Notes: a model not told the origin generated them from the letters alone. A stretch of DNA of 64,000 bases from Bacillota bacterium (GCA_021324975.1 JAJPIA010000029.1:1-64000), one strand, 5' to 3'. Shown: positions 37,010 to 57,256, counted from the stretch's first letter. Numbers and translations are program-made.

Positions 37010-37052
37010 TGGGCCCGCCAGGTCTCGAACCTGGATCCGCCGGTTATGAGCC
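37010..37052. repeat. Duplicated tRNA 3' segment (distal att site of island)
   Basis: 43 bp identical to 57186-57228 (tgggcccgccaggtctcgaacctggatccgccggttatgagcc). Confidence 0.92.
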
Positions 37053-37082
37053 TGCGGCGCATCATCGCAAACCCCAATAAAA

Positions 37083-37960
37083 TCAAGGGTTTGCGCGTAT
37101 GGCACCCTCGCGCTGAGGGTAGCAGGAGGGTAGCAGACTCTCCCGCGCCTCTTTGAGCATTGCTGACACCGCTGCCGCGGCCTGCGCCTGGCTCCGGATA
37201 ACGTGCGCGTAGACGCGCGCGGTAAACGCAGGGTCCTTGTGACCCAACCGCTCCGCGACCGTCCGCAACGGCACGCCCCGTTCCAACAGGTGCGATCCGT
37301 GCCCGTGGCGCATGTTGTGCAGCGCCCGCCGCCATGGAAGCCCGAGCTTCTTACACAGCGGGTAAAGGTCACGGTTCCTGACGTTATTCTCGTGCAACGG
37401 CTTTCCCGTGCGCTGACAGAAGACAAGATCGAGCGCGTGCCATCCGTCGCAGTGCTGCCGGCGGCAGGCGGCCCCGTCTGTGCAAGGCGCCCGGCGTGCC
37501 CGTTCTTCGTTCTGGCGCATCCTCACGTCCCGTAGCACGGCGACGGCCTCCTCCGGCAGGTCGATCGCCCGTTCCGAGTTGAGGGTCTACGGCTCTTTGA
37601 GAGTGAAGCCGCCGCCCTTCGGTCGCTGGAGCGCCTGTGAAATTGTGACGGTGCATCCGCGAAGCGACAAGTCGCGCCACGTCAATCCCAGGGCCTCGCC
37701 GATTCGCACGCCCGTGCTGACAACGAACAGGTAGAGTGGGTAATGTGGGCTCGACACTTTCGCCTCGGACCCCGAACATCCCGATCCCCGCGGCGTGTGC
37801 CAACGTATGTGCAGCGAGTTCGCGCTGCGCCGCCTCGGCTTCTGCGTGCGTCGTGAACGTGAGCCATCTGTCGCGCTTCTTGCCACGCTCTCTGCCAGCA
37901 TAGACTTTCAGAGCAAATGATCGTCCTCGACGCACGATGATCCCGGGCACGGTGAACCCC
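37083..37960 (-). pseudogene. Degenerate tyrosine-recombinase integrase
   Basis: Fragments in shifted frames: RRGRSFALKVYAGRERGKKRDRWLTF; FVVSTGVRIGEALGLTWRDL; LHNMRHGHGSHLLERGVPLRTVAERLGHKDPAFTARVYAHVI. Confidence 0.85.
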
Positions 37961-38461
37961 CTCCCCCGTAGTTCGGTGGGGGAGAGAGTTCGAAGCCGAT
38001 GGGACGTGGTCCCTTCGCCGCCCATGATCAGGGGCAGGAAGGGGCGATTGAGCAGCTCTCGGATGTCGGCGGCGGTCAGGCCCGGGGTGTTCACGTTCGC
38101 GCCGCCGGACTGCATGCCAGATCCTAGACCACCACCGCCACCGTTCGCCGCGATCACGTTCCACACGGGCACCCAGGTCTGCGCGCCCTGATCGCCGCCG
38201 CCCCCCGTCCAGTATCCGCCCGTAGACGCGAGATTCGGAGACTGCGACGCGGCCTGCGGTGCGGCTGCATTGGCTTGAGGGGCCGCGAAGTTCGGAGACA
38301 CCGTGACGAGAGCCTTCACGACCATTCCCATCGCCTGGTTCAAGTGGCGCAGATTCTCGGCGATCGCTGGATCCTGACCGCTTTTGCGCTGGACGGCTCT
38401 CCGGATGGCCCGATTAGGATCCTGTATCGTGACGTCCCGCCGCTCTGCACAGGGTGGCGAG

Positions 38462-38587
38462 GCTCGTCACGTTGGTGCAGTCGTATCGGCGCGCGGAGAA
38501 TAGGACGCAGGAGTTGAGCGAGATCGCGCGTGGGATCAAGTCGTTGGCGAAGGAGCTTGACGTGCCGGTCAGGCACGGTATCCTCTA
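38462..38587 (+). pseudogene. Fragment of DnaB-type replicative helicase
   Basis: LVTLVQSYRRAENRTQELSEIARGIKSLAKELDVPVRHGIL*; matches the DnaB ENRTQE(V/L)SEIxRGLKxLAKELxVPV segment only. Confidence 0.65.
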
Positions 38588-38721
38588 GCGGGCTCGGTGC
38601 GACGCCGGCGAGCACTTCAGAAGCTCAAGGATGCAGGATCGGTGGTCGATGACACCACAGGTAGCGTAACAATAGTAGAAGAGCATTTTTCATATCCACC
38701 CCATGCGGCGCGTCACTTATC

Positions 38722-39558
38722 TCAGGCGTCCATGCCGATCTCGACATCGACGACGACGCCGAAGTGATCGCTCGCCCACGTTCCGTCGAACGTCCGGTCA
38801 AATGCGAGGGTGGCAGTTTTGACCTGGCAGTGAGCTTTCGGATGATGATGTGCCGAACCGATGAAGACGTAGTCGATCCTCCGCCTTTGACCGGGCTGTC
38901 GAACGATTTGGTCCATAACTGAATGGGCGCGGGGGTTATCGGCGGACCAGGTGTACCCGGGTCCGTCGCCGGCCACCGCCCACGCGTCCTGGTAGCAGAC
39001 GCTGTGACCACCGAGCGACTGCTGGCCCTTCAGGTACCGGATGCTGGCCGCCTCGGGGCCGGCGTTGAAGTCTCCTGCGATGACGGTCGGGAGCGTGCGG
39101 CGGTGGCGTGCGTCGAGCTCGGCGAGCGCGATCACCTGGCGCTCGCGGGGCCACTCGGCTTCCAGGCGCCACGAGGTGGTGGTGGCAATGAACAGCACCT
39201 CACCTTCGCGTGGGAGAGTGACGACCACGGCCAGTGTGCACCACGGAACGTCGGCAGCGTCATGGAGACGAAGGTCGAGTGTTTCGACCACGCGATGTGG
39301 CCACCGGGTGGCCACGGCGGTGCCTCCGTAGCGATCCGCCCACGGCGGTTCGTATGCCATGGTCTGCGCCTGGTGCGTCGCCTGGAAGTTTGTCCCGGCG
39401 AGCAGTTCGTCGAGCTGACGTCGTTCTGACGTGTGGACGACCTCCTGGAGCGCGATCATATCGGGATCGAGACGCCGCAGTTCCCGATTGAGCACGTCCT
39501 GACGGCGAGTGTCGCCGGTTACGTTCTCGACGTTCAGAGTAAGAATCCGCGCCTGCAT
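38722..39558 (-). CDS. Endonuclease/exonuclease/phosphatase family protein
   Basis: ILTLNVEN, ALQEV, VIAGDFNAGPEA, RRRIDYVFI, ASDHFGVVVD. Confidence 0.88.
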   Translation of the reverse strand: MQARILTLNVENVTGDTRRQDVLNRELRRLDPDMIALQEVVHTSERRQLDELLAGTNFQATHQAQTMAYEPPWADRYGGTAVATRWPHRVVETLDLRLHDAADVPWCTLAVVVTLPREGEVLFIATTTSWRLEAEWPRERQVIALAELDARHRRTLPTVIAGDFNAGPEAASIRYLKGQQSLGGHSVCYQDAWAVAGDGPGYTWSADNPRAHSVMDQIVRQPGQRRRIDYVFIGSAHHHPKAHCQVKTATLAFDRTFDGTWASDHFGVVVDVEIGMDA

Positions 39559-39714
39559 TGTGACATCACCTCGTAGATGGCATCGCACACCCGTAAGTAG
39601 ATTCTGCCCCTGCCCAGCATCCGGTCGCCAAGACGACGTGCGTGGGCGGAACTGGCCCAATATCCCGGGCAAATTCGCCAACTACGACCGAAACCTACAG
39701 TAGTAGAGGCCGTG

Positions 39715-39935
39715 TCCCGGCCGAGTGTCGGATACCCTCGGGCGATGAGTCCACTCAACTTCCCTGTTCACGCGCCGACGTCGACCAGGTGATGCTCCGC
39801 GTCCAACGGAGGGGAGAGCAAGCACCAGCTCACGATAATGTTCTGGTTCTCGCTCCGGCCCGGCAGTCCAAGTCGTATCGTGCAGGTGATATCAGTCCGG
39901 GTGGTCCGAGGGATCAGGCGTGCTGCAGGTTGGCG
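39715..39935 (-). pseudogene. Partial duplicate of the SAM methyltransferase gene at 46999-47745
   Basis: Nucleotide-level similarity by eye, e.g. cggataccctcgggcgatgagt.cnctcaacttcc aligned to about 47460-47640. Confidence 0.7.
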
Positions 39936-39951
39936 GTTGTGCTCATTGTGG

Positions 39952-40044
39952 CTAGTACTGGGACAGCCGCCTCATAAGCGTTGGAGTCAGTTCCCCGCCG
40001 TGTATATCGAACACCTCCACTGAGGCGCTCCACGTACAAAGCCG
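39952..40044 (-). pseudogene. C-terminal fragment of an ABM monooxygenase-like protein
   Basis: SVEVFDIHGGELTPTLMRRLSQY* parallels TVELFDVHGGTLTSALLDRLPE* of 50620-50946. Confidence 0.6.
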
Positions 40045-40085
40045 GTTGCGCCCCGCAGCGTGACCGTACCACTGGCCACGAGGCA

Positions 40086-40105
40086 GGTCTTGTGTTATCT
40101 TGCGC
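40086..40105 (-). promoter_or_regulatory. CAAGA-N5-CAAGA direct-repeat motif, copy 1
   Basis: Reverse complement GCGCAAGATAACACAAGACC, 49 bp upstream of the AraC gene. Confidence 0.5.
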
Positions 40106-40153
40106 ATTGATCGGCAGATGTGAAGACGTAGACTCGAAGGCTCCGGTGCAGCA

Positions 40154-41041
40154 ATGAAGCGTGAGCGTCCAAATCCGAACGCTTTAGTGGGCCGGGAATG
40201 GTCTCGGTATTTTCGCGACGACCGTCTGCAAGGCATTGAGGTGCTGCACGCACAATTCGTGCACCATCGATATCCGCGACATTCCCACGATTACGCTGTC
40301 GTGGCCCTCGTCGAACGTGGCGCCGCATCGTATTGGTACCGGGGTGCGCAACATATTGCCAGTGCGGGACAGGTCTTTTTTGTCAATGCCGGCGAGCCAC
40401 ATACCGGCGATCCCGCGATGCTCGGCGGGTACGTCTATCGGGTGCTCTATCCCCGCCTCGACTATCTCGCACACGTCGCACGTGACATTGGCACTAGCAC
40501 CGGCGTGACGTTTTTCAAGGGAGCAGTCGTCGATGACCGTGATCTGAGATCGCTCCTGACGGCGTTTCACACTCGCGTCTCGGCACATGCGCCGGCTGCA
40601 GAGTGCGAAGCGCTGTTGCTGCGCGCGCTTGCCCGACTGATGATACGATATGGCGACCCGGTCGGCAGTCCTCGGCGCGCCGGATTCGAGCGCCCTGCTG
40701 TGAAGACGGCAAGAGATTTTATGGAAAGTCATTTTGGCGAGGATGCCTCAATCTCAAGACTTTCCGCGCTCAGCGGCCTCAGCCCGTACTACTTCGCCCG
40801 CTCCTTTGAACGGGAGGTGGGGCTTCCACCCCACGCGTATCTGGAGAGTGTCCGAATCCGCAAAGTTCGCGAATTCCTCGATCGGGGGGAAAGTCTCGCC
40901 TCTGCCGCCCTCTCGGCGGGCTTTGCCGATCAAAGCCATCTGACGCATCGCTTCAAACGGATTTTGGGAATCACGCCGGGGCAGTACGCTGGCGGCCGCA
41001 AGAATCGACAAGACCGTGCAGCGATCGCGCGGACAATCTGA
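40154..41041 (+). CDS. AraC family transcriptional regulator (N-terminal cupin)
   Basis: FVHHRYPRHSHDYAVVALVERG; C-terminal HTH LSGLSPYYFARSFEREVGLPPHAYLESVRIRKVREFL...GFADQSHLTHRFKRILGITPGQY. Confidence 0.92.
   Translation: MKRERPNPNALVGREWSRYFRDDRLQGIEVLHAQFVHHRYPRHSHDYAVVALVERGAASYWYRGAQHIASAGQVFFVNAGEPHTGDPAMLGGYVYRVLYPRLDYLAHVARDIGTSTGVTFFKGAVVDDRDLRSLLTAFHTRVSAHAPAAECEALLLRALARLMIRYGDPVGSPRRAGFERPAVKTARDFMESHFGEDASISRLSALSGLSPYYFARSFEREVGLPPHAYLESVRIRKVREFLDRGESLASAALSAGFADQSHLTHRFKRILGITPGQYAGGRKNRQDRAAIARTI
40998..41015 (+). promoter_or_regulatory. CAAGA-N5-CAAGA direct-repeat motif, copy 2
   Basis: GCAAGAATCGACAAGACC within the 3' end of the AraC coding sequence. Confidence 0.35.
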
Positions 41042-41114
41042 GTAATGGGACCGGCTTCCACAGCGCAGCCGCCGTTGGCGGCGCAGACCCTTACGCGAGC
41101 ATAGGGAGCAGCCC

Positions 41115-41270
41115 ATGAGCTATCTGGTCGTTTTGCTGGCGGTGTTGACGCGCTTCATACCGCACATGCCAAACTTCTCGCCGGTGTTTGCGGTACTCCT
41201 GTCTGGCGGCGCTCACCTGAAACGGCGGGATGCGATTTGGTATCCGCTTGCGCTCCTGGCGTTCTGTAAT
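41115..41270 (+). pseudogene. N-terminal fragment of small membrane protein (DUF6580-like)
   Basis: MSYLVVLLAVLTRFIPHMPNFSPVFAVLLSGGAHLKRRDAIWYPLALLA, then homology-like pattern stops. Confidence 0.5.
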
Positions 41271-41346
41271 CGTCGGGAGCACGTTGAAAGAGTCGAACAA
41301 GAGTACTGCCGTGTATGTGGCGCGTCATCGCTGTTGAGAACAACTC

Positions 41347-41577
41347 ATGACCAAGCCGAAAGCGGCAGTCTCGTGGAGCGGCGGCAAAGACAGTTATCTG
41401 GCGTTGCATCGTGCGGCTGCCGCCTTCGATGTCCGGGCGCTTCTGAGGATGTTTACAGAAGACGGAACACGCAGCCGATCTCATGGCCTCCGTCCGCAAG
41501 TGGTGGCTCGCCAAGCAAGCCTGCTGAACCTTCCTCTCGTGAGCGGCCGAGCTTCGTGGAAAGGCTACGAAGAGGAA
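41347..41577 (+). pseudogene. N-terminal fragment of Dph6-like ATP-pyrophosphatase
   Basis: AAVSWSGGKDSYLALHRA...FTEDGTRSRSHGLRPQVVARQASLLNLPLVSGRASWKGYEEE; parallels the intact gene at 54702. Confidence 0.75.
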
Positions 41578-41909
41578 AGGTGCGCAGTCACCGCGTCAAG
41601 GACGGGTTGCGGCACGAGTGCGCCCCCAGCATTGTTGAAGTGCAACACATTGGCGCATCCGGGCGTGTCGCGTCGGACGCATTCAATGTCAATAGCCACA
41701 ACGAGCTTCCTCAGGTTTCGATGGCCTGCGACATCTCAGTCTCGTCTAGGCGGCGCCGGTCATGTCGTCATCCGGACGGTGCGGTAGGTACACTGGGGGT
41801 CGCCGACGTCGCTCACGCAGGTCCGATCCCATCCCCACGAATAACTCTCTCGCGGACCCATAAGCTGTCGGACGACCCTGCCGGTGGTTCCGCCACAAAG
41901 ACGTTCATC

Positions 41910-42752
41910 TCATCGCATCGCGATTACAAGACCGATCAAAATCAATGCCATGCCCGCGTAACGGATGGGGCCGAAGACTTCGCCGAGGATCACCGCCGAC
42001 GCGATGATGCCCGCGCACGGCGCGAGCAGCGCGAACGGGGCGACGACGGCGGTCGGGTAGCGTTGGAGCAAGTCGCCCCAGATCGCGTATGCCAAGGCGG
42101 TGGCGACGGCGCCCAAATACACTACGGCGCCTAGGCTGAGCCATGGAGCGTGCGATGCCGCATCCGCGAGCGTCACGCCGCGATCGGCCAACGCCGACAC
42201 CGCAAGAGCCGGCAGCGGCGGGACGAGGCTCGCCCAGACGACCAGCGGCAGCATCGGCGCGCCGGCCGCGCGCTTTACCAGGACGTTGCCAACGGCCCAA
42301 CTGAACGCACCGGCGAGTCCGAGACCCAACCCGGCCGGCGTGAGGTCCCCGCCGACGGTCAGGCCGATAAACGCGAGCCCTGCGAAAGCGATCGCCATGC
42401 CCGCCCACTGTCTTGCGGTCGGCACATCGCGAAGAAATGACGCGGCGAGTAGCACGGTGAAGAACGCCTGCGTCTGCTGCGTCACCGACGCGAGACCCGG
42501 CGGCAGGCCGCGGGTGTACGCGAAAAAGAGCAGCAAGAACTGCCCGGTGAACAACGTGAGTCCGATCAGCACCAGCGAGAGCCACGGGATCTTGGGCCGA
42601 GGCACGACAACTGCCGGCAGGCACGCGAGGAGAAACCGCGCCGCCGTCAGCTGCGGCGCGGAGAAGCCCTCCAGACCAAACTTAACCGCGACGAAAGCGA
42701 CGCCCCAGATCACCGAGGTGAGGCTGGCCAGCACCGCATCGCGAAGTCGCAT
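41910..42752 (-). CDS. EamA/DMT family transporter
   Basis: Two EamA repeats; SVIWGVAFVAVKFGLEGFS, SAVILGEVFGPIRYAGMALILIGLV. Confidence 0.92.
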   Translation of the reverse strand: MRLRDAVLASLTSVIWGVAFVAVKFGLEGFSAPQLTAARFLLACLPAVVVPRPKIPWLSLVLIGLTLFTGQFLLLFFAYTRGLPPGLASVTQQTQAFFTVLLAASFLRDVPTARQWAGMAIAFAGLAFIGLTVGGDLTPAGLGLGLAGAFSWAVGNVLVKRAAGAPMLPLVVWASLVPPLPALAVSALADRGVTLADAASHAPWLSLGAVVYLGAVATALAYAIWGDLLQRYPTAVVAPFALLAPCAGIIASAVILGEVFGPIRYAGMALILIGLVIAMR

Positions 42753-42773
42753 CGTGGCTGATACCGTCGAAAA

Positions 42774-43223
42774 TCACGTCCACACAGACTCTTGTAAGAT
42801 GCCGACCGTAAGAAGTTTTGTATGGCCGCCCACGGCGATGTGGTGAGCGGTTTCTGCGCACCGTACGTAGAGTCGGCCGCGTGCGGTTGGCCCCCTTGTC
42901 CCCTGATCCACACGCCACGCTCCAGCGCCTGCAGCCGCTTCGAGCGAGGCGAGATATGCTGGCAGTCCCGCAACCGCCCCGCAGGTCGCCGCATCTTCGC
43001 GGCCCGACAAGGACGTGGTGAAGACGCGTATCGCCAGATGGTCCGGACCGACTCGGGCGAACGGGCACACGGCGCTGATGTTGCGTTCTCGACAGTACTG
43101 CATCACCTCGTCTGAACCAGGCGTGAACGCGTGCAATTGGTCTACCTCGCCGACCTCAACGTACGCGCGGTGGCGACCGAAACAAATGCAACACTGAGGT
43201 CCAGGTAAGTTCGCCCACCGCAT
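42774..43223 (-). pseudogene. C-terminal half of a PhzF-family protein
   Basis: RVFTTSLSGREDAATCGAVAGLPAYLA...DQGTRGPTARGRLYV...VGG; no N-terminal half. Confidence 0.6.
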
Positions 43224-43252
43224 GCGGCCTGCGAGCGAAGGGAAACTGTTCC

Positions 43253-43640
43253 TCAGCCACGGAGGTGGTCCATCAGATTTTCTGCTGCGAGGCTACCGGA
43301 CGGCGGCTCGACACCCTCGACGTGCTCCTCGAACAGCAGCGTCGCTTGTCCGCGCACGCGTGTCCTCGTAATCTGTCCGGTATCAACGAGGACGCCTGCA
43401 TCGATGACGCTGGGATGGTTCATCGCGTGCCCTTGACCGATCAGGTACATGTGCTACCCTTAGTGCTGCGACTCCAAAACCTCGTACCTGGTGAAGTATG
43501 CAGCGAGGGCTGAGGCGGCCACCCCGGTCGCGGGGTCTTCCGAAAAGCCTGCACGGAGCGGAAATTGCCGGGCTTCGACCTGTAAGGTCTGCGTCCGCGG
43601 ACGGGTCGTAAACGTGTACACGCCCGTCGTCTTGTCGCGC
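43253..43640 (-). pseudogene. Interrupted PhzF-family C-terminal region
   Basis: VEARQFPLRAGFSEDPATGVAASALAAYFTRYEVLESQH* then IGQGHAMNHPSVIDAGVLVDTGQITRTRVRGQATLLFEE. Confidence 0.7.
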
Positions 43641-43744
43641 TCACAGAGCGGCTCCCGTCGGCGATGCCCTGGTCCAGAACCGCCATCGTGCGTGGCAGTG
43701 GCACGACGCGCGGGCCAATTGGCGACGTAAGCTCGAATGAACGT

Positions 43745-44371
43745 TTAGTATCTCTCGACGACCGGACCGGCGGCCCGTCGGTACTCGATGTAGTGGGCGG
43801 TTTCGTCGGCGACGTTCGGGCCCCAGAGACGCTCGACCACGTAAAACGCCATGTCGATGCCGGAGGCGACGCCGGCCGAAGTGATGATTCCATCATCGAC
43901 GACGCGAGTCTCCCGCTCGACTTTGCCGACCTCGAGTGTCGCAAGCAAGTCGAGTGCGTCCCAGTGCGTGGTGGCCCGCCGGCCTGACAACAACCCGGCC
44001 TTCGCCAGAAGGAGTGACCCCGTACAAACCGAGGTAACCTGGCGAGCTTTGGCCGCCATACGACGAATCCAGTCCAGCGTGTCCACATCATTGAGCAGGG
44101 GCCGGGTTCCGCGGCCGCCGGGCACGACCAACAGATCGATCGCCGGGGCGTCACCGAACCCATAGTGCGGAATCACCGTCAGTCCGCCGGTCGTGGCAAT
44201 CGCCTCGCGGACTTTGGCCACGGTGAACACGCGGAATGGCGCCGACTCCTCGGAGCGGCGAGACTCCGCACCCGGAACAAGCCGCACACGCGAGAAGACC
44301 TCGAACGGGCCGGCGAAGTCGAGGATCTCGACGCCGTCGAAGATGAGGATGCCGACGTTCAGCTTGTCCAT
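43745..44371 (-). CDS. DJ-1/PfpI family protein (isonitrile hydratase/GlxA-like)
   Basis: VGILIFDGVEILDFAGPFEVF, VTSVCTGSLLLAKAGLLSGRRATTHWD. Confidence 0.88.
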   Translation of the reverse strand: MDKLNVGILIFDGVEILDFAGPFEVFSRVRLVPGAESRRSEESAPFRVFTVAKVREAIATTGGLTVIPHYGFGDAPAIDLLVVPGGRGTRPLLNDVDTLDWIRRMAAKARQVTSVCTGSLLLAKAGLLSGRRATTHWDALDLLATLEVGKVERETRVVDDGIITSAGVASGIDMAFYVVERLWGPNVADETAHYIEYRRAAGPVVERY

Positions 44372-44422
44372 TCCCGGACCTCCACGCTACGGCCTCGCGG
44401 CCTGGACGGTGCGCCCCGCGCG

Positions 44423-44655
44423 TTATTTGCGAATGGTCTCGTAGTACTCGGCATAGCGACGCACGACGTCTTCCTCGGATGCGCCGGTATCGTAGATTGG
44501 TGAGATCAGCGGGGCCGCCTGCCGGACGTTGATGAGCGCCACGTGCTTGACCCGCCCCGCCAGGGCATCGCCGAGCCCGTAAGTGTCTCTGAAAAAGTTC
44601 ATGGCGCGCTCGAAGAGCGGGCCGGCGTCTACGATCGTGGCCTCCCCTTTGAACC
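44423..44655 (-). pseudogene. C-terminal half of a PNPOx-like flavin-binding protein
   Basis: YRFKGEATIVDAGPLFERAMNFFRDTYGLGDALA...ISPIYDTGASEEDVVRRYAEYYETIRK*, paralogous to 52368-52850. Confidence 0.75.
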
Positions 44656-44830
44656 GGTAGCCCCCCAATCCGGATGAAGTCCGTGAACAAGTCGTCCGTT
44701 GGCAGGCCCCATAGCGGCTCCACGGCCTCCAACACCCACACTCACGGCAGAGCCGGTCTGCCCATGCCCTTACTGGCGTCGAGAAAAATGTCGCCAAAGA
44801 CCACGTGGGAAAACGTGGAAGAACGCGAAC
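44656..44830 (-). pseudogene. Middle fragment of Dph6-like ATPase, frameshifted
   Basis: SHVVFGDIFLDASKGMG... and EAVEPLWGLPTDDLFTDFIRIGG in two frames; parallels 54702-55451. Confidence 0.7.
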
Positions 44831-44934
44831 TACTGTCCGAGATGATCGCCTGCACCGCATACGACCTCTGCGCCCTCCTCGGAAATAGTAAGCTGACAGG
44901 CGGAAGGAGAATAAATACGGTTTGTCGATAGCAA

Positions 44935-45225
44935 TTGCAGCGACGCATCAACGCTCCCACGCTGTGCATCGGGCGGCATCGACCACCGGCTCTCGTCGTG
45001 GGGTTTGATTGTCGGCCGTTCTTCGGTCAACGCGAGTTTGAACCGCACATAGCTGTTCAGGTGGCTGTCCGCGACATGGTGCGCGATCTGCCGAATGGTC
45101 CAATTCCGGTATTTCGCCTCAAGCACCGCTTCCGAAAGTCCGACTATGCTCGCCCGTAACCGCGCAGGTGCATGGCCGACCTCAGCAATCCAAACCTCCC
45201 GGCGTCGGTCGTTGTGCATGGTATC
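44935..45225 (-). pseudogene. N-terminal fragment of DinB/YfiT-like protein
   Basis: VGHAPARLRASIVGLSEAVLEAKYRNWTIRQIAHHVADSHLNSYVRFKLALTEERPTIKPHDE; C-terminal part absent. Confidence 0.6.
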
Positions 45226-45304
45226 TGGAGCGAACGGCCCGGCCGGATACTGCGGCTGTTCAGTCAGCTGATGTTCTCTCATCTCGGCTCTCCAAGGCAG
45301 AAGC

Positions 45305-45799
45305 TCACAGATCCGCACTCAGGGAGCGGGCGAGATAACTCATCACGCTGGCGCGTTTGGGATCCTGAAGCATTGTTTCGACCCAGGCGTTGCGCTCATA
45401 AGCCAACACGTTAAGCTCCCACACGCAGACGGTCGGACCACTTGTCACTTGCGTGAACTCTGTCGGGTGATCGAGTGGCGCTCGATAGAGCTTGTGACAC
45501 AGGACATCCTCGTACGCCCACCAGTCGATCAACGCCCAGCAGGCGTCCTTTCCTTGATGGACGGTCAAGAAGCCGACCCCGTACCGTTCTTCCGTCGTGG
45601 GCGGCTGCGGGAGTGCGGTGGCTGCCAATTGCTTCGCGGCCTCGACGGCGTCCGGCGCCGGATATTCGCGGCCGAAGGCTATCCCGTACGCCTTGAGTTG
45701 CCACCCCGCGACGCCGCAGATGCCCAGAAACCGTATGGGTCGCGGAGCGTAGGCGTGTGTGATGTTCACACGTCGCGCTACCGCTTTATCGGTGCTCAT
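45305..45799 (-). CDS. Hypothetical protein
   Basis: 164-aa ORF with protein-like composition; start at MSTDKAVARRVNITHAYAPRPIRFLG. Confidence 0.5.
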   Translation of the reverse strand: MSTDKAVARRVNITHAYAPRPIRFLGICGVAGWQLKAYGIAFGREYPAPDAVEAAKQLAATALPQPPTTEERYGVGFLTVHQGKDACWALIDWWAYEDVLCHKLYRAPLDHPTEFTQVTSGPTVCVWELNVLAYERNAWVETMLQDPKRASVMSYLARSLSADL

Positions 45800-47964: not shown

Positions 47965-48146
47965 TCCTCCGCATGCCTATGTGGAGAGCATTCGGATTGA
48001 GCGCGCTCGCGGGTTGTTGGGGTCCGGCACGATCGTGGCCGACACGGCGCTCGCGGTGGGTGATCCCGACAAGCGTACTTCACCCACCGTTTCCGGCGGC
48101 TTGCGGGATTCACGCCCGGTTGCTACCAAGCCTGCGCAAGATAACG
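47965..48146 (+). pseudogene. C-terminal HTH remnant of AraC regulator, frameshifted
   Basis: GWFPPHAYVESIRIERARGLLGSGTIVADTALAVG, then in another frame SRQAYFTHRFRRLAGFTPGCYQACAR*. Confidence 0.7.
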
Positions 48147-48153
48147 CAAGACC
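48134..48153 (+). promoter_or_regulatory. CAAGA-N5-CAAGA direct-repeat motif, copy 4
   Basis: GCGCAAGATAACGCAAGACC, 19/20 to copies 1 and 3, 53 bp upstream of the cupin gene. Confidence 0.5.
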
Positions 48154-48205
48154 CGCGTCCCGACCGGTGGTATGTTCGAACTGGGCGGCGCGGGGAGGTG
48201 CAGGC

Positions 48206-48571
48206 GTGCTCGAGGTGGTTCTGAAGCGTTTTGAACGTCCGGACGAGACGCGGACGTTCCCGAAAGGGAAGTTCGAGGTGATACGCATCGGCGGCATGAC
48301 AATCGGCCGTGCGACGTACGAACCTGGCTGGAAGTGGTCCGTCGACGTCGGGGGACCCGCCGGACTACGGAGTTGCGCAGTTGAGCACGTGGGCTTGGTG
48401 ATCTCCGGCAAGGCGGTCGCCGCGATGGAGAACAGCCGGGTCGTCGAGATGAACACGGGAGACCTTTTCTACATTGCGCCTGGCCACGACAGCTGGGTCG
48501 TCGGCGACGAGCCGTACGTGTCGCTGCATTTCATGGGCGCTGCGGAGTACGCGCAGCATGGTCCGCGTTAA
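48206..48571 (+). CDS. Cupin domain protein
   Basis: GWKWSVDVGG...CAVEHVGLVISGKAVAAMENSRVVEMNTGDLFYIAPGHDSWVVGDEP; GTG start. Confidence 0.8.
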   Translation: MLEVVLKRFERPDETRTFPKGKFEVIRIGGMTIGRATYEPGWKWSVDVGGPAGLRSCAVEHVGLVISGKAVAAMENSRVVEMNTGDLFYIAPGHDSWVVGDEPYVSLHFMGAAEYAQHGPR

Positions 48572-49481
48572 GGCCAAGCTCGACCGGACCGACCGCATCA
48601 ACGTCATTCTCACCCGTGTGTTTGCCGCGACCCGGACGGGCGGCAATCCCTGCCCAGTCGTCCCTGTTGCCGACGGCCTCACCTTTCGCGAGATGAAGCG
48701 GCTGGCGACGAGATTCGGATTGGACACGGCCTTCGTCCTGAAGGCCCGGTCGAAGACGTCGGCGCTTCGCATTCGATATTTCGTGCCGGACCATGAGATG
48801 GGGATTTCCGGTCATGCCACCGTTGCGGCCGTGACGATTGCCGTGCGCACTAAGCGACTGAAGCCGGGCCGGGTGCGGATTGAGACCAGGTCGGGCGCGT
48901 TCGACGTTGAGTCGGCGGGCGGGCCTGGACACATGCTGGTCACGTTGGAGCAGAATCCGCCGGTATTCGACCAAATCGTTCCGCCGGAAACCGTCGCCCG
49001 GGTCCTCAACGTCTCTCGTGACGACATATGCCGGGCCGAAGGTCCGGTTCAAGCGGTCTCGGTCTCTCGGGCCAAACTGCTCGTGCCACTGCGGGATTGG
49101 AAGGTACTCAACCGGCTCGAGCCGGACTTCGAAGCGCTCTGGCGATTATGCGATCGTTTGGGGGTCACTGGTCTCTATCCGTTCACACGCCGTACGGACA
49201 AGCCAAACGCGTCCGCGGAGGCGCGGCAATTCCCGCTTCGCGCCGGATTCCCGGAGGATGCCGCCACCGGGGTTGCCGCGGCGGCGCTTGGCGCCTACCT
49301 CGCGAACCACGACTTGGCCTTCCGGTCCGGTCTTCATACCTTCCGGATCGCGCAGGGCTACGCAATGGGTGCTCCGAGCGTGATCGAAACGATCGCCGAG
49401 TGCGCGGGTGCGCGCGTCACGAGGACGGCGATTCGGGGCGCAGCCATCGTCGTACGCCACGAACGTGTCGCACTCGCGTGA
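48558..49481 (+). CDS. PhzF family protein (intact)
   Basis: VFAATRTGGNPCPVVP, FVPDHEMGISGHATVAA, PLRAGFPEDAATGVAAAALGAYL. Confidence 0.9.
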   Translation: MVRVKAKLDRTDRINVILTRVFAATRTGGNPCPVVPVADGLTFREMKRLATRFGLDTAFVLKARSKTSALRIRYFVPDHEMGISGHATVAAVTIAVRTKRLKPGRVRIETRSGAFDVESAGGPGHMLVTLEQNPPVFDQIVPPETVARVLNVSRDDICRAEGPVQAVSVSRAKLLVPLRDWKVLNRLEPDFEALWRLCDRLGVTGLYPFTRRTDKPNASAEARQFPLRAGFPEDAATGVAAAALGAYLANHDLAFRSGLHTFRIAQGYAMGAPSVIETIAECAGARVTRTAIRGAAIVVRHERVALA

Positions 49482-49830
49482 CACACGACGCCTCGAACCT
49501 CGCCCGCGGGCCTCAACGAACGGCGTTTTACCGAAACGGCGTCCTCGTCTGCCTCAAGCGCGATTGCCGACCACGACGTCGAAGATGAGGCCCTCATTCG
49601 GCTTGCGGCGCCGGTGATAGAACTCCTGCCCGATCGGCGATTTACGTGTTGATGGCATCGGGGCGGCCGACGCCGGTCTTGATTTTATCGCAGCTGGCCG
49701 TTCGATCGGCGAACTTCGCCCTCTTAGGGTGACACCACCTCCATGCCGGGGCATTGCTCACCTTGTCGATCCGCTCGTACCCAACTTCCGGGCCCGGCTC
49801 GACGAGCGAACATGTCAGGGAGCCGCCACG

Positions 49831-50397
49831 ATGTCTGACGCGGCTGCCCTCACCATCCTTGCGCAGATCAGCGATGCTCACCTCCGTCTCGGGCCAGGCG
49901 GCGAGTCGGTCCGGGCGTTGAAGGCGGCCGTCCGGTCACTGACCGCTTGTGATCCCGCTCCGCAGGCGGTGTTGATCACCGGCGATCTCATCGATACTGG
50001 CACTGCGCGCGAGTACAAAGGTGCCCGGGAGATACTGCAACCGCTGCAGATGCCGCTGTACGTGGTGGGCGGTAATCATGACGATCGTAACGCCCTTCGT
50101 TCGTGCTTTGAGGCGACCACGATCGATGGCACGGACAGCCTCTTTATCCAATATGCAACCTATGTCGGTGGCGTGCGTCTTGTCGTCTGTGATACCGCGA
50201 CGCCCGGGCGTGACGAGGGTAGCTTCGGTCAAGACCGCCTTGCCTGGCTGCAGAGCGCGCTCGAGGCCGATCGCGAGGCCCCGACAATCATCGCAATGCA
50301 CCACCCCCCATTCGTGACGGGCATTCGCCTTCTCGGTTTCTCGCGACAAGGCTCGCGAGGCCGCGCCGGTGCGGTGCCGGAAGACCCACCTCAGTGA
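49831..50397 (+). CDS. CpdA-like metallophosphoesterase, probably C-terminally truncated
   Basis: LAQISDAHL, LITGDLIDTG, VVGGNHDDR, AMHHPPFVTGI, then abrupt non-homologous tail. Confidence 0.75.
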   Translation: MSDAAALTILAQISDAHLRLGPGGESVRALKAAVRSLTACDPAPQAVLITGDLIDTGTAREYKGAREILQPLQMPLYVVGGNHDDRNALRSCFEATTIDGTDSLFIQYATYVGGVRLVVCDTATPGRDEGSFGQDRLAWLQSALEADREAPTIIAMHHPPFVTGIRLLGFSRQGSRGRAGAVPEDPPQ

Positions 50398-50619
50398 TGA
50401 CCGCGGTCATTCCGGATAGCCGCGGCACGGCCATCAGATTGGTCCCGGCTCCCAGTCGGTCCGATTGATCGCGTACCAGAAGACGTCACGCGGGGCATGC
50501 AAACTTTACTTTCACATCGAGAAATGGCCCAAGCTCTGAAGACGACGGAAGGTGAAACCTGAGGCTTAAGGTGCTGAATGTCGGATGTCCTGAGGCTCTC
50601 CGGCGAGGGGTTAGGAATC

Positions 50620-50946
50620 ATGATTATTCGCATCTGGCGCGCCGAGGTCGATCCGAGTCGAGTTGCACAGTACGAGGAGTTCGCGCGCGAGCACTCTCTA
50701 CCCATGTTCCGGAAGCAGCGAGGTCTGCTAGGCGTGGTGTTTTCCCGCGCGTCAAACCGCGCCCTGGTCCTGACCATTTGGGAGAACCAGGAGGCAATAG
50801 CCGACTTGGAGGCTTCGCCGACATACCGAGACACCGTCACACGGATCCACCGTGCCGGCTTCGTGCGAGAAGATACCACGGTTGAGCTCTTCGATGTCCA
50901 CGGCGGCACGTTGACATCGGCGCTTCTCGATAGGCTGCCAGAGTAG
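50620..50946 (+). CDS. Antibiotic biosynthesis monooxygenase (ABM) domain protein
   Basis: MIIRIWRAEVDPSRVAQYEEFAREHSLPMFRKQRGLLGVVFSR...VLTIWENQEAI. Confidence 0.8.
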   Translation: MIIRIWRAEVDPSRVAQYEEFAREHSLPMFRKQRGLLGVVFSRASNRALVLTIWENQEAIADLEASPTYRDTVTRIHRAGFVREDTTVELFDVHGGTLTSALLDRLPE

Positions 50947-51092
50947 TGCCTCACCCGTGGGATCATCACGATTGGTAGAACCCACCGACGGATCCGATGG
51001 GTTCATGAGCTGGCCCACGGGGCGGAGCAGATGCTGTGGGGCAGCTTCGTTGCCGTTGCGCGCAGCCCGCAAATGCATGCCATCTGGTGCCA

Positions 51093-51209
51093 ATGGTGCA
51101 GGCCGTGAAGCAGATGGTCGGCCGCCGACCGCGGCGGCTGACGGCGGACGCCGGCTACTTCAGTGAAGCGAACGTGATGGCCAAGGCCGTCCGCGGCATC
51201 GACCTCTAA
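51093..51209 (+). mobile_element. Transposase fragment (IS1182-like)
   Basis: MVQAVKQMVGRRPRRLTADAGYFSEANVMAKAVRGIDL*; LTADAGYFSE is typical of this transposase class. Confidence 0.6.
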
Positions 51210-51378
51210 CAGATACGACCGCGATTGCAGCCAGTGGTGAGGATGGCAAGAGGGTAAAGGGAGGCGGGAGATGCGGGAGCTTAGCGCCGATCCAGCGATC
51301 ATAATAGCCTCGCCGCCTCCGCTACGTGGCCTCCACGCTAAAACTCGGACACACACCTAGACTAGAGGGGTCGCCGCA

Positions 51379-52119
51379 ATGAACCCGATTCGGCTCACCA
51401 TCCTGGGCTCCGGCGATCTGCTTGGAAGCGGCGGACGTTTTCAAACCTGCTTTGCGTTGGACGCTGAGAATACGCACTACTTGATCGACTGCGGGGCATC
51501 GTCGCTGATCGCAATGAAGCGGTTCGGCGTGGATCCGGCCTCCATCGACGGCCTCCTGGTGTCGCACTTGCATGGGGATCACTTCGGCGGACTTCCGTTC
51601 TTGATCCTCGAGGCGCAATTCGGGCGACGCACTCGCGATCTCACCGTATGCGGTCCGGCCGGTATTGTTGAGCGCACCAACGCGGCGATGGAAGTGCTGT
51701 TTCCGGGATCGACAAAGGTAGAGCGGAAGTTCCGGACCTCTTTCGTGGAATTTGCGGATCGGCAGGCGCTTCATGTGGGGCCGCTCGAGGTCACCCCATT
51801 CGAGGTCGTTCACGCGAGCGGCGCCACACCCTATGCCTTGCGTATCGCGATGGGCGGGAAAGTCATTGCGTATTCAGGTGATACGCAATGGACAGAATCG
51901 CTCGGCGCCGTCGCTCAAGACGCCGACGTGTTCGTGTGCGAGGCGTACACATTCGACAAAGCGATCCGCTACCATCTCGATTTTGCTACCCTTGCCACCC
52001 ATCGCAGTGAGCTCACGTGTAAGCGACTGATTCTGACACACATGAGCGAGAATATGATGACCAATCTTCCTCAGGTTGATGTGGAGGCCGCCTCCGATGG
52101 CATGGTCATTACACTGTAA
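51379..52119 (+). CDS. MBL-fold metallo-hydrolase (RNase Z-like subclass)
   Basis: LTILGSGDLLGSGGRFQTCF, LLVSHLHGDHFGGLPFLILEAQ, IAYSGDTQW, LILTHMSE. Confidence 0.88.
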   Translation: MNPIRLTILGSGDLLGSGGRFQTCFALDAENTHYLIDCGASSLIAMKRFGVDPASIDGLLVSHLHGDHFGGLPFLILEAQFGRRTRDLTVCGPAGIVERTNAAMEVLFPGSTKVERKFRTSFVEFADRQALHVGPLEVTPFEVVHASGATPYALRIAMGGKVIAYSGDTQWTESLGAVAQDADVFVCEAYTFDKAIRYHLDFATLATHRSELTCKRLILTHMSENMMTNLPQVDVEAASDGMVITL

Positions 52120-52127
52120 AATTGCTC

Positions 52128-52220
52128 TCAAGCGCTCGCCGGCTTGTGGATCGCCACCCCAACCGCCACCAGTGCGATCCCGCTCACTTCGATCGCGGTG
52201 GGAACCTGATGCAAGACGAG
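52128..52220 (-). pseudogene. C-terminal tip of an EamA-type transporter
   Basis: QVPTAIEVSGIALVAVGVAIHKPASA*, typical last TM helix. Confidence 0.4.
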
Positions 52221-52367
52221 CACCCAACAGTCGTCGCCGTCGCCGGCAACAGCGAGCGATCGGGTGCTGTTCCGTATCGCATATCGGCTGGTGTGGCTAG
52301 AAATATTGACATCCGCGTCGCCGGGACGAGTATCATGTGGCAACCCGCAATGGGAGGAGGCAGTGTT

Positions 52368-52850
52368 ATGGGAATCCTGACCGAGGAGATGCAGCGGTTC
52401 GTACGAGAGCAGAAGCTGGGTTTCGTCGCCACAATCTGCGCCGACGGCACGCCAAACCTCTCACCCAAAGGCACGACGACCGTGTGGGACGATGACCATC
52501 TTATCTTCGCCGATATCTGCTCACCCGGGACCATCGCCAACCTGGTTCAGAATCCGGCGGTTGAAGTCAATGTCGTGGACCCGATCACGCGTCGTGGCTA
52601 CCGCTTCAAGGGACAGGCCACGATCGTCGATGAGGGCCGGCTGTTTGAGCGCGCGATGAGTTTTTTTCGGAACGACTACGGTCTCAGCGAAGCCCTCGCG
52701 CGGCGAGTTGATCGCGTCGTGCTCATCAGAGTTGCACGGGTAGCGCCTGTTATTTCCCCGATTTACGACACCGGCGTGACCGAAGACGAGGTCGTACGCC
52801 GGTACGTCGAATATTACGAGACCATTCGCAAACAACGTGCGGGCGTCTGA
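52368..52850 (+). CDS. PNPOx-like (pyridoxamine 5'-phosphate oxidase fold) protein
   Basis: LGFVATICADGTPNLSPKGTTTVWDDDHLIFADI. Confidence 0.88.
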   Translation: MGILTEEMQRFVREQKLGFVATICADGTPNLSPKGTTTVWDDDHLIFADICSPGTIANLVQNPAVEVNVVDPITRRGYRFKGQATIVDEGRLFERAMSFFRNDYGLSEALARRVDRVVLIRVARVAPVISPIYDTGVTEDEVVRRYVEYYETIRKQRAGV

Positions 52851-52859
52851 CCACGTCAA

Positions 52860-53390
52860 TGGGTCAAGCACATTGAACAAACTGAGCATTGGCATCCTAA
52901 ATTTTCGATGGCGTGTCGATTTCTGTCCGCTCGAGTCCGTCTCGGCGGCCCGCGCCAAGCTGATCGCACTGGTGGCCAACACGGCGACGTTGGACGCGGT
53001 CGCCCCAACTTCGAAGCGCTGTGGGATCTGTGCAACAGGTATGAGACGACTGGGATGCACGTGTTCACCACGCGCACCCGCGACTTGAACTTGTAAGTAG
53101 AGGCGTCGCAATTTCCGGTCCGTGCCGGCTTTCCAAGGGACCCGGCGACGGGTGTGGCCGCCGCGGCCCTCGCCGGCTATCTCGCGAACCATGAAGCGAT
53201 CCAACCACACCGTGAGGGCTGGCGGACTTGTCACATCGGTCAAGGGTACGCGATGAAACGTCCCAGCGTGATAGAAGCAGCTGCTTTCCTGGACGCCGGG
53301 CGGATTACGAGGACGCGTGTACGCGGGCAGGCGACACTACTGTCAGAAAAGGAGATTCCCCGGATGTCGAATCCGGCCTCGGCGTGACGA
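52860..53390 (+). pseudogene. Degenerate PhzF-family gene
   Basis: Broken frames; PATGVAAAALAGYLANHEA, HIGQGYAMKRPSVIEAAAFLDAGRITRTRVRGQATLLSEKE. Confidence 0.7.
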
Positions 53391-54712
53391 ACGAGTTCGT
53401 GGACCGGGACCAAACAGTAGTTGAGCGGAAACCTTCGTTCGTCCCCAGACGGCGTTTGATGGGCGAACTCATTTGGGCCTCGTTGCTGCATCTGTGGAAT
53501 GATGGCCTCACCGCAGCCCTCACGCTTCTCCTGCCGTTGATGGCGATGGACCTCCACCTCAGTTATGCGCAGGCCGCCTTCGTACGCACGATACACCTCG
53601 CCACCCTTGCTGGTGTTCAGATCCCGATTGCTGTGTTCGCCGGCGCGGCACGGGAGGTCGCGGTGCTCGGCGGCGGGCTCGTATGGTTCGGCGCTTCCTA
53701 CCTGGCGCTCGCGGGTGCCATGACACCCGTGGCCGCCGTGACGTGGGCCGCGGTCGCCGGCATCGGCGCAGGCGGATACCATCCGGTGGCGACGAATCGA
53801 ATTGCGCACCTTGCCGACTCTGGTAACCGTGGCCGGGCGGTGGGTACCCTCAACTTCGCGGGAGACCTCGGCAAATTTCTCCTGCCGGCAGCAGCGGGCG
53901 CCGTCGCGTCCTTTCTAGGCTGGAGGACGACTCTCGGCCTCTTCGGAGGCCTAGCAGCGCTGGCCGGAATCGCATATCTCTTGGTTCGCGAGGGGAGCCA
54001 CGTCTGCACCGACCGCGCCGGCCTCGTGCACGTCGCCGGTACGGAGCGCACGAAGACGGCCCTCGCAACGCGCCCCGAGGTCGCTCGCGGCAAGGACACG
54101 GCCGCTGCCGGATGGGGGATCGCTCGTCCGGGACCGTTTGCCCTCATCACAGCGATCGGGGTCATTGACAACGGGATTAGGTCGGCGGCGCTAACATTTC
54201 TGCCGTTCCTTCTCGTCTCGCGTGGCCTTGGGACCGGGGAGGTGGGAGGCCTCTTCGGCGTGATGCTCCTCGGTGGGGCGGCCGGCAAGTTCGTCTGTGG
54301 CCGGTGGACCGACTTGGTCGGTGAGCGGACCGTCATCATTGCCACGGAGGCCCTGATGGCGGCGGGCCTCGTGGGTTTGCCGCGAGTGAACGGCGTTGCC
54401 TCCATAGCAATCTACCTCCTGGCGCTCGGCATCGTACTCAACGGTACCTCCTCGGCGGTGCTAACCGGCGTGGCCGACACCGTCGATCGTGTGCGGGGGA
54501 GCCGCGGTTACGGGGCATACTTTACGAGCACCTTTGCCAGCGGCGCAATCGCCAGCGTGGCCTACGGCGTCCTTGCCGATCGCCGCGGACTCCCCGGGGT
54601 GTTTCTTGGACTTGGACTCGTGACGCTGCTGATTCCGGTGCTCGCCCTCCTGCTCCCGGCCAACATGGCTGTGCGCGGCAGAGGGAACGAGGTCAAAATC
54701 AATGCCCGCTAA
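53384..54712 (+). CDS. MFS transporter
   Basis: Multiple TM segments; GIGAGGYHPVATNRIAHLADSGNRGRAVG, FVCGRWTDLVGER. Confidence 0.88.
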   Translation: MTNEFVDRDQTVVERKPSFVPRRRLMGELIWASLLHLWNDGLTAALTLLLPLMAMDLHLSYAQAAFVRTIHLATLAGVQIPIAVFAGAAREVAVLGGGLVWFGASYLALAGAMTPVAAVTWAAVAGIGAGGYHPVATNRIAHLADSGNRGRAVGTLNFAGDLGKFLLPAAAGAVASFLGWRTTLGLFGGLAALAGIAYLLVREGSHVCTDRAGLVHVAGTERTKTALATRPEVARGKDTAAAGWGIARPGPFALITAIGVIDNGIRSAALTFLPFLLVSRGLGTGEVGGLFGVMLLGGAAGKFVCGRWTDLVGERTVIIATEALMAAGLVGLPRVNGVASIAIYLLALGIVLNGTSSAVLTGVADTVDRVRGSRGYGAYFTSTFASGAIASVAYGVLADRRGLPGVFLGLGLVTLLIPVLALLLPANMAVRGRGNEVKINAR

Positions 54713-55451
54713 TCAGGGAAACGCAAATGCGTGGCACGTTCAAGTAATCGACGCGGACGATGCGGCGGGAAACGTGGTGAAAAATGCACTCCCGAGAGCT
54801 GCCGTCTCCTGGAGCGGCGGCAAAGATAGCTGCTTGGCCTTTCATCGGATGCGAGCGGTGTTCAACGTTCAAGTGCTTGTCACGATGCTGACGGAGGACG
54901 GCACGCGTACCCGGTCGCACGGATTGCGACCAGAGATTATCGCACGACAAGCGGCGTTACTAGATCTCGAGCTTTTCACCGCGCGCGCATCCTGGCAAAC
55001 GTACGAGGCTGAATTCAAGCGAACGTTACGGCAATTGGTCGAACGGGGTATCTCCCACGTGGTCTTCGGCGACATCTTTCTTGACGCCAGTAAGGCATGG
55101 GCAGACCGGGTCTGCCGTGAGTGTGGATTGGAGGCCGTGGAACCCTTATGGGGCCTGCCCACGGATGACTTGTTCACGAATTTCATCCGGATTGGAGGAG
55201 AGGCCGTGATTGTTGCGACCCGTGCCGCCCTTCTCGACGCCTCATGGCTCAATCAGACTCTTGACCCGTCGATGCTGCCCGCCTTTCGTGCCTTGGGCGT
55301 CGATGCCTGCGGCGAGCGAGGAGAATATCACACCCTCGTGGTTGGCTTCCCGAGCGTTCGATCGCGCCTGCCAATTTGTGAAAGAGGTCGGCTGCTTCAC
55401 AATGGCTATTGGTTGCTCGACCTCGAGTTGTGTCCGAACGATTCCACTTGA
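54702..55451 (+). CDS. Dph6-related ATP-pyrophosphatase (intact)
   Basis: AAVSWSGGKDSCLAFHRM, SHVVFGDIFLDASKAWADRVCRECGLEAVEPLWGLPTDDLFTNFI, CGERGEYHTLVV. Confidence 0.88.
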   Translation: MPANQGNANAWHVQVIDADDAAGNVVKNALPRAAVSWSGGKDSCLAFHRMRAVFNVQVLVTMLTEDGTRTRSHGLRPEIIARQAALLDLELFTARASWQTYEAEFKRTLRQLVERGISHVVFGDIFLDASKAWADRVCRECGLEAVEPLWGLPTDDLFTNFIRIGGEAVIVATRAALLDASWLNQTLDPSMLPAFRALGVDACGERGEYHTLVVGFPSVRSRLPICERGRLLHNGYWLLDLELCPNDST

Positions 55452-55501
55452 AACGAACCTCTGACGCCCCGAATCGTACTGCAACCTATTGGAGGCGAAA
55501 C

Positions 55502-56017
55502 ATGAGCACGTCCGCCATTGATCTGGCCGAGTATTTCGACTACCTGTGCAAGGCGCGCGATCGATTACTGGGGTGGGTTCGCGACCAGCCTGCAGAGGCG
55601 TACGCACGATCGTTCCCTATCGGACTTGGTTCCATTCGGGCGACATTGGTTCACATCGCCGACGCTCAGCGAGGATACACAATGCGGCTCGAGGGTTCCG
55701 AGTTCTCCCCGGCGGACAATCCGTTCTCCATCGACAAGCTGCTGGAGCTCGAACCGCTGATCTCCGCATGGTCCGGCTTCAACCCACGGACGCGACTGGC
55801 ATTAGCCAATCTCGGCGACGGGGCCCGCGTGATCGAGTACGCTAGCCGGGTCCTCGCGCCAGGGAAACGCCTTCGGGGGACAGCGGGTGGGCTCGCCGCC
55901 CAGCTCTTCTTCCACGAGGTACACCACCGGGCGCAGGTCATGGCGATGCTGCGACAAGTTGGCGTCGCGGCTCAGGATCTCGACTACAACAACTTGATGT
56001 TTGACCGGATCGATTGA
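55502..56017 (+). CDS. DinB family protein
   Basis: ATLVHIADAQRGYTMRLEGSEF, FFHEVHHRAQVMAMLRQVGVAAQDLDYNNLMF. Confidence 0.85.
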   Translation: MSTSAIDLAEYFDYLCKARDRLLGWVRDQPAEAYARSFPIGLGSIRATLVHIADAQRGYTMRLEGSEFSPADNPFSIDKLLELEPLISAWSGFNPRTRLALANLGDGARVIEYASRVLAPGKRLRGTAGGLAAQLFFHEVHHRAQVMAMLRQVGVAAQDLDYNNLMFDRID

Positions 56018-56260
56018 GCGCGTCACCGCACGTGATACATTGAGATCATTGCCAGACGGATCCGAAGCCGGCGACCGGACGCACGGCTCGCCCACGCGTA
56101 TCCAGACCGTCATCCTCGGCCTGGACGGTCTGACGCTCGATACCGAAACGCCCGATTACCTGAGTTGGCAGGAGACCTACGCTCGCTACGGGCTGTCGCT
56201 CGAACGGGGCACCTGGGCCCGCGCAGTCGACAATTCCGTCGCGCCGCTCCGCGAACGCGG
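56001..56260 (+). pseudogene. N-terminal fragment of HAD-family hydrolase
   Basis: TVILGLDGLTLDTETPDYLSWQETYARYGLSLERGTWARAVD, then unrelated sequence. Confidence 0.6.
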
Positions 56261-56299
56261 CGCTGATGTGGCCGCCGTCCGGGAGGCGCGCCATCGGTG

Positions 56300-56814
56300 C
56301 CTTGTGATCCTCCTCGTAAGCGCCAGTTCCGGGGTCGCGCCTGACCGCAGCGCGTCGCGCGCGCCGCGCCAGGCATAGAGCGCCTGGTGGCGATCGCCGA
56401 CGAGAACCTGCTGGGCGTGCGTCTGCGCGAGCGTGATGGACAGCATGCACGGATTGGCGTCCTGAGCCTCGTCGAACAGGACGACGTCGTACGGCAGCGC
56501 GGGCTGGCGCAGCTGGAAGAGTTTCAGGTAGATGTCGTGCGTGACCGGGACGTCAGACGCCGGATCCGACAGGATGGCCCACGCCTCTTCGGCGGCGCGA
56601 ATGCCTCATCGGCGAGCGCGCGCGTAAACGACAGGTACAGGACGCGGCGTCCCTCGAGCGCGCGGGCGAGGAGGAGCAGCGTGGCGGTTTTGCCGGCGCC
56701 GGCGAACGCGGCGACCCGGAGGGACTGGCCGGCGCGCGCGGCGTCGATGACGGCCTGCTGCTCGTCGGTGGGGCGGACGACGTGCATCACCGGCGCACGG
56801 GGCGGCCGGTGCAA
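56300..56814 (-). pseudogene. Truncated, frameshifted UvrD-like DNA helicase
   Basis: LRVAAFAGAGKTATLLLLARALEGRRVLYLSFTRALADEAF, then in another frame VVLFDEAQDANPCMLSITLAQTHAQQVLVGDRHQALYAWRGARDAL; C-terminal half absent. Confidence 0.75.
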
Positions 56815-57062
56815 TCGAACGCGGCGATGACGCCGCGGGGAGTGACCTCGAGGATGAGACCGCGCGTGGGGCTGGCGAGCGTGAGCGCGGCGGCGAAATC
56901 GCTCGTGGCATCGGCTATGGAACGATCAGAGGTGCCGCGCACGACATGGTACACACGGCCGTACCGAGCCACAAGATCATCCAGGACACGCTGCCGTCCT
57001 CGAGAATCGGTCTCGGGCTGCCTGCCTGAGGCGTGCCCAATGATCCTCGGGCAGGTTCCTCC

Positions 57063-57120
57063 TGGTAGGCCGTGACGGACTCGAACCCCCGAGGCCCGGG
57101 TCTAAAGGCGAAGCCTCGCT
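57063..57120 (-). other. tRNA-like 3' end remnant
   Basis: Reverse strand ...GGGGGTTCGAGTCCGTCACGGCCTACCA resembles a T-arm/acceptor/CCA end; no matching 5' half found nearby. Confidence 0.3.
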
Positions 57121-57185
57121 AACGTTCATTGAGGGTAGCAGGGGGGTAGCAGTCGGCACCCATCCTTCTCTAACCCTTTATTAAC

Positions 57186-57256
57186 TGGGCCCGCCAGGTC
57201 TCGAACCTGGATCCGCCGGTTATGAGCCGGATGCTCTACCCTTGAGCTACGGGCCC
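57186..57256 (-). tRNA. tRNA with CAT anticodon (Met or Ile2)
   Basis: GGGCCCGTAGCTCAAGGGTAGAGCATCCGGCTCATAACCGGCGGATCCAGGTTCGAGACCTGGCGGGCCCA; acceptor, D and T stems pair. Confidence 0.92.

Follow-up and report, generated by a model that had tools for sequence, protein, structure and literature searches.

A decayed genomic island at a tRNA(CAT) gene of a soil bacterium from the uncultured phylum Sysuimicrobiota

Introduction

In the genome of a soil bacterium from the uncultured phylum Sysuimicrobiota, an intact tRNA gene with anticodon CAT lies 20.2 kb from a second copy of its own 3' part. This arrangement raises the question of whether the DNA between the two copies entered the chromosome by integration into the tRNA gene, or whether the end of the gene was merely duplicated within an ordinary chromosomal region. 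To our knowledge, little is known about the mobile elements of Sysuimicrobiota. We analyzed a 64-kb window (the whole stretch of DNA under study) containing both copies, together with the remainder of the same genome and those of relatives. The window is part of a metagenome-derived draft, and both junctions discussed below are known from that assembly alone.

Results

An exact repeat of the tRNA 3' end

A repeat search of the window aligned positions 37010-37052 with 57186-57228 at 43 of 43 bases (Table 1). This core pair is the only exact repeat of at least 30 bp in the window, where the second-best match to the core reaches 27/43. As estimated from base composition, the chance expectation for a 43-bp exact repeat in 64 kb is about 1e-15. 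When the alignment was extended to 54 bp (36999-37052 and 57175-57228), identity fell to 93%, showing that the flanks of the two cores diverge. A single intact tRNA with anticodon CAT was called at the right-hand end by ARAGORN and Rfam, on the minus strand at 57185-57257. It is called tRNA-Met; elongator Met and Ile2 both fit the label CAT. The core extends from tRNA position 30, just 5' of the anticodon at 34, to the 3' end. At 37010, neither ARAGORN nor Rfam made a tRNA call. The left copy is therefore a fragment and not part of a second complete tRNA gene, a possibility that the first-pass annotation had raised. That annotation had described an exact 43-bp duplication, diverging bases on either side of it, and a right copy that makes up the 3' portion of a complete tRNA(CAT) gene on the minus strand, all of which agree with the results above. 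Its right limit, 57256, fell one base short of the tRNA 5' end assigned by ARAGORN.

Table 1 Features in and around the island, with positions in the window and the evidence for each.
Feature	Position	Strand	Evidence
Outer foreign DNA beyond the core pair: amidohydrolase pieces, DinB, MFS	32444-37009		Absent in G001; composition below all background chunks; Pfam
Far-end att core, 43 bp, displaced 3' fragment of tRNA(CAT)	37010-37052	-	Identity to 57186-57228; no tRNA called there
Tyrosine integrase, catalytic domain remnant, one in-frame TAG	37083-37769	-	PF00589 1.1e-13; 67% over 208 residues to G003 integrase
Arm-type motif GAGGGTAGCAGGAGGGTAGCAG, far end	37115-37136	+	0 expected
Integrase N-terminal segment, different frame	37741-37899	-	Alignment to G003 integrase
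Cargo: EEP enzyme, AraC, EamA, DJ-1/PfpI, DinB, SnoaL, 4HBT thioesterase, methyltransferase, PhzF, metallophosphatase, ABM, MBL fold, PNPOx, MFS, Dph6, DinB	38400-56020		Pfam
Broken second copy of the methyltransferase gene (46999-47745) and its upstream region	39711-40105	-	Sequence comparison
Broken, diverged second copies of Dph6, PNPOx and PhzF, partly inverted	41356-44906		Repeat/sequence comparison
UvrD-like helicase remnant, phage-type	56186-56814	-	phrog_1967 7.1e-15 and 4.7e-5; PF00580 4.6e-4
Decayed 3' half of tRNA-Lys, att-core extent (anticodon to 3' end)	57063-57107	-	89% to own-genome tRNA-Lys; 82-90% to relatives' tRNA-Lys matches
Arm-type motif GAGGGTAGCAGGGGGGTAGCAG, tRNA end	57131-57152	+	0 expected
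Intact tRNA(CAT), called tRNA-Met, with near-end att core 57186-57228 inside	57185-57257	-	ARAGORN, Rfam; conserved in relatives

A broken integrase and paired motifs

Adjoining the left core is the remnant of a tyrosine integrase. Its C-terminal frame (37083-37538, minus strand) matched PF00589 (1.1e-13) and phrog_1 (3e-19) and stops at 37083, leaving 31 bp to the left core, just where the first-pass annotation had placed the end of a decayed tyrosine integrase. The catalytic domain (37149-37769), interrupted by one TAG, shows 67% identity across 208 residues with an intact integrase from G003, a genome of another genus in the same family. Residues aligning with the catalytic ones of the integrase family are retained, namely the R in GVRIGEA, the H-x-x-R in HNMRHGHG, the H in LGHKDP and the Y in RVYAHV. 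Approximately 110 residues of the core-binding region are absent between the catalytic piece and the N-terminal segment. Judged from its sequence, with the core-binding domain deleted, the frame changed and a TAG in addition, this integrase should be inactive, and since it is broken the island should today have no mobility of its own. The genome encodes other, related integrases that could bear on excision, while the broken integrase of the window argues against self-excision.

In a phylogenetic tree, the integrases of the window and G003 are sisters (support 0.93), followed by the integrases found at tRNA-Lys. Members of this integrase family adjoin tRNA-Phe, Arg, Ala, Thr, Pro and Val genes elsewhere in the bacterial family. 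A scan of viral collections with the intact G003 integrase returned no locus, and annotated phages contain remote relatives only, the best among the matches listed being 29-31% identical. Separately, an integrase remnant in G002 (L126, G002:C120:1944-2183) adjoins the counterpart of the tRNA-Val at window positions 62460-62534, which points to a further hotspot within a few kb.

A double motif, GAGGGTAGCAGGRGGGTAGCAG, is located just inside both cores in the same orientation (37115-37136 and 57131-57152). It is absent elsewhere in the window, and its number expected by chance is 0. Searched across the entire 4.43-Mb genome with at most one mismatch, the pattern GGTAGCAGNNNGGTAGCAG has three matches, each of them at an island of this kind: two are the pair in the window, and the third adjoins an integrase in contig C104. 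These motifs, also denoted GGTAGCAG motifs, are candidate arm sites that the integrase would bind. The arm pattern also matched one contig in the viral collections, which carries neither a related integrase nor a tRNA.

Related elements and the unoccupied site

In G003, a 14-kb element lies between a tRNA-Met (23910-23983) and a copy of the core (37949-37996) and carries the motif at each end. Its genes specify an intact integrase, a resolvase and a terminase large subunit; a transposase gene adjoins the terminase gene and seems to interrupt it. This prophage remnant (G003:C11:23984-37950) resembles the window's island in its target, the same tRNA-Met, in its core, in the arm motif at both ends and in the order of these parts, as well as in its sister integrase (67% over the catalytic part). 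It differs in having an intact integrase frame, a terminase and a resolvase, and in carrying none of the window's cargo.

A second related element is found in the window's own genome (G000). There a tRNA-Lys 3' fragment borders directly on the C104 integrase, and an intact tRNA-Lys with a variant of the motif adjoining it lies 19.4 kb away, which together identify a sister island of the same layout (C104:116404-135779; L011, L012). The two islands of this genome have in common the arm motif, related integrases at the far end and a similar length (19.4 kb for the C104 island), whereas the C104 island differs in its target, tRNA-Lys(TTT), in its cargo and in an integrase without its first ~110 residues. 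In G010, 32 kb between two tRNA-Lys core copies (L211/L212, G010:C44:17521-49529) contain a UvrD-like helicase and PADLOC matches to ZacA, ZacB and ZacC (E down to 0), the latter indicating a defence system at the tRNA-Lys hotspot.

The same site was then compared across relatives. In L034 (G007), truA lies 120 bp from the tRNA with nothing inserted; the truA copy of the window ends at 3848. The sister species G001 is collinear with the window over positions 1-32443, apart from small indels, and again from 57183 onwards. Between these parts it holds 10.5 kb of unrelated DNA, with no second core at this locus. Comparison with L034 and G001 together shows that ~53 kb at this tRNA is variable, and the part adjoining the tRNA differs between the two sister species. 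The first-pass reading had been made to depend on there being no relative with the same gene order that lacks only the second copy; the relatives matching in the flanks lack the core copy and the island together, the site being empty in L034/G007 and occupied by other DNA in G001.

Among 12 family genomes, a second Met fragment in the island configuration is present in G000 and G003, and in G010 a Met fragment is located on another contig. Two further arrangements were observed at tRNA-Met genes. In G006, a Met 3' fragment (L216, G006:C74:7301-7341) lies 5' of the intact tRNA, a position that insertion of a simple tRNA island would not produce. In G002, sugar ABC transporter genes occur twice (L031, G002:C120:4496-9614), in opposite orientation, flanking the tRNA-Met on both sides.

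These comparisons bear on whether a mobile element was involved at all. The fragment could have arisen within an ordinary chromosomal region if the 3' end of the tRNA had been duplicated locally, as plain duplication can yield tRNA fragments and the one in G006 is not where an island would place it. Such an origin is nevertheless highly improbable here, given the adjoining integrase, the motifs at both ends, the foreign composition described below, the empty relative and the same arrangement in G003. The paired motifs, the prophage remnant with a related integrase in the same tRNA and the unoccupied site in a relative instead argue for integration, and not for a chance repeat.

Composition and layering of the variable region

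GC content is 62.7% in the island and 69.1% across 236 kb of its own genome. The island has a tetranucleotide correlation of 0.61, lower than in any of twelve background stretches of 18-20 kb from this genome, which range from 0.77 to 0.95. A scan in steps of 4.5 kb places the foreign signal between ~30-32 kb and ~55-57 kb. The start of this signal fits the break in collinearity with G001 at 32443 rather than the core at 37010, which lies 4.6 kb further in. From this coincidence of composition and lost collinearity at ~32.4 kb, the segment from 32.4 to 37.0 kb is also foreign. The first-pass annotation had begun the island at 37.0 kb, which is the position of the left core, but foreign DNA begins ~4.6 kb further left. 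The outer segment (32444-37009) is probably an older insertion at the same site, and the island is the innermost layer of the ~53-kb variable region at this tRNA. Further out, the stretch from 3.9 to 32.4 kb has a composition normal for the genome and may represent an old insertion or a loss in L034. Past the tRNA, the right flank has low GC, a normal tetranucleotide signature and conservation in relatives.

The chances are about even that the segments 32.4-37.0 kb and 37.0-57.2 kb record two successive entries into the same tRNA, with the left core and the integrase of the outer element lost thereafter. The foreign composition from ~32 kb, where collinearity with G001 also stops, is in keeping with such accretion, as are the similar gene types in the outer part, for instance a DinB gene 41% identical to that of the island. 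On the other hand, no outer core lies near 32.4 kb, the best other match in the window being 27/43, and no further integrase was found. Accretion of this kind would refine the account of integration at the tRNA gene and does not conflict with it.

Gene content and the right end

The cargo consists of ordinary metabolic genes and is not phage-like. A scan of cargo ORFs with Pfam, and partly with PHROGs, found no phage structural or packaging genes and no conjugation genes or relaxase. The first-pass statement that phage structural and conjugation genes are lacking thus holds for the ORFs scanned, but it overlooked the phage-like helicase remnant at 56186-56814. Several other classifications were considered and rejected. 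Labelling the island a prophage is not warranted by a helicase remnant only, with no structural or packaging genes in the ORFs scanned, and an integrative conjugative element is contradicted by the lack of conjugation genes and relaxase in the same set. An integron, for which the many small single-enzyme genes might speak, was rejected because the recombinase is phage-type with core and arms and repeat searches found no repeated attC-like element. PADLOC returned no hits for the five cargo proteins tested, and a defence island was likewise rejected.

Several cargo genes are accompanied by broken second copies (Table 1). Within these, a Dph6::PNPOx fusion (44415-44810) has its junction at 44662, in a short stretch partly common to both parents, and its pieces are inverted relative to the intact Dph6 (54702-55451) and PNPOx (52122-52850) genes. 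A conserved stretch around GCAAGATAACRCAAGACC occurs in three copies (40056-40112, 47743-47799 and 48133-48191), two of them at the starts of the methyltransferase copies, and is possibly a shared promoter or operator.

At the right end, a decayed 3' half of tRNA-Lys lies between the helicase remnant and the arm motif, 24 bp from the latter. It is conceivable, if rather doubtful, that the left end of a Lys-type element was joined here to a Met-type right end through their near-identical arm sites. Like the core, the relic spans the anticodon to the 3' end, it is followed by the arm after 24 bp in the order seen at Lys-type left ends, and the Lys- and Met-targeting integrases are nearest neighbours in the tree, which would be compatible with target switching between Met and Lys. 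However, the DNA to the left of the relic lies beside tRNA-Lys in 0 of the 12 family genomes, so such a junction stays hypothetical; moreover, the 24-bp spacing between relic and arm contrasts with ~61 bp at intact Lys and Met left ends.

Discussion

We consider it very probable that the window contains a decayed genomic island that a phage-type tyrosine integrase inserted into the 3' half of tRNA(CAT) by site-specific recombination. The core pair, the intact tRNA, the paired motifs and the integrase remnant, together with the relatives (a vacant site, and a prophage remnant that occupies this tRNA in another genus and retains an intact integrase), bear out the initial reading of a tRNA-bounded island with attL and attR, and the foreign composition adds further support. 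Some observations count against this explanation. The integrase is located on the less usual side, at the far end instead of next to the intact tRNA, yet the same is seen in G003 and C104; and the foreign composition starts 4.6 kb outside the left core.

In the proposed pathway, attP in the circular form would have been ordered arm, 43-bp core, arm, int. Crossover, presumably in the anticodon-loop region, would split the chromosomal tRNA, whereupon the element would supply a new 3' half at the near end (57186-57228) and the original 3' half would be displaced to the far end (37010-37052). The element may have started as a temperate phage, or as an island carried by a phage integrase, and lost its mobility genes later. 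A phage origin is suggested by the relative in G003 and by one helicase remnant, the cargo itself not being phage-like.

Among tRNA islands of the Islander type, an anticodon-centred attP is found in 2083 of 3919 islands (PMC4383910). Apart from its pseudogene integrase, the window's island fits the Islander definition (PMC4383910). An intact tRNA is restored at one end (57185-57257), and a 3' fragment in the same orientation, itself no tRNA gene, lies on its 3' side (37010-37052), with the integrase remnant between them. The length of 20.2 kb is within the range of 2-200 kb, and the fragment lies outside conserved non-integrase domains, the nearest domain being the integrase that ends at 37083. 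The integrase ORF has clear tyrosine recombinase homology and an open C-terminal frame; the gene is broken, so this island would not be classed as putatively active. Its host phylum, being uncultured, is a further difference.

Overall, the island is a textbook case, real but ordinary, whose insertion site has been hit repeatedly in relatives, and it leaves the general understanding of genomic islands unchanged. If the right end is composite, it would offer a route by which the island family or its cargo could change its tRNA target. The locus places on record site-specific tRNA islands, att cores and candidate arm sites in Sysuimicrobiota, and the two hotspots, at tRNA-Met and tRNA-Lys, together with the arm motif provide a handle for finding further islands of this family.
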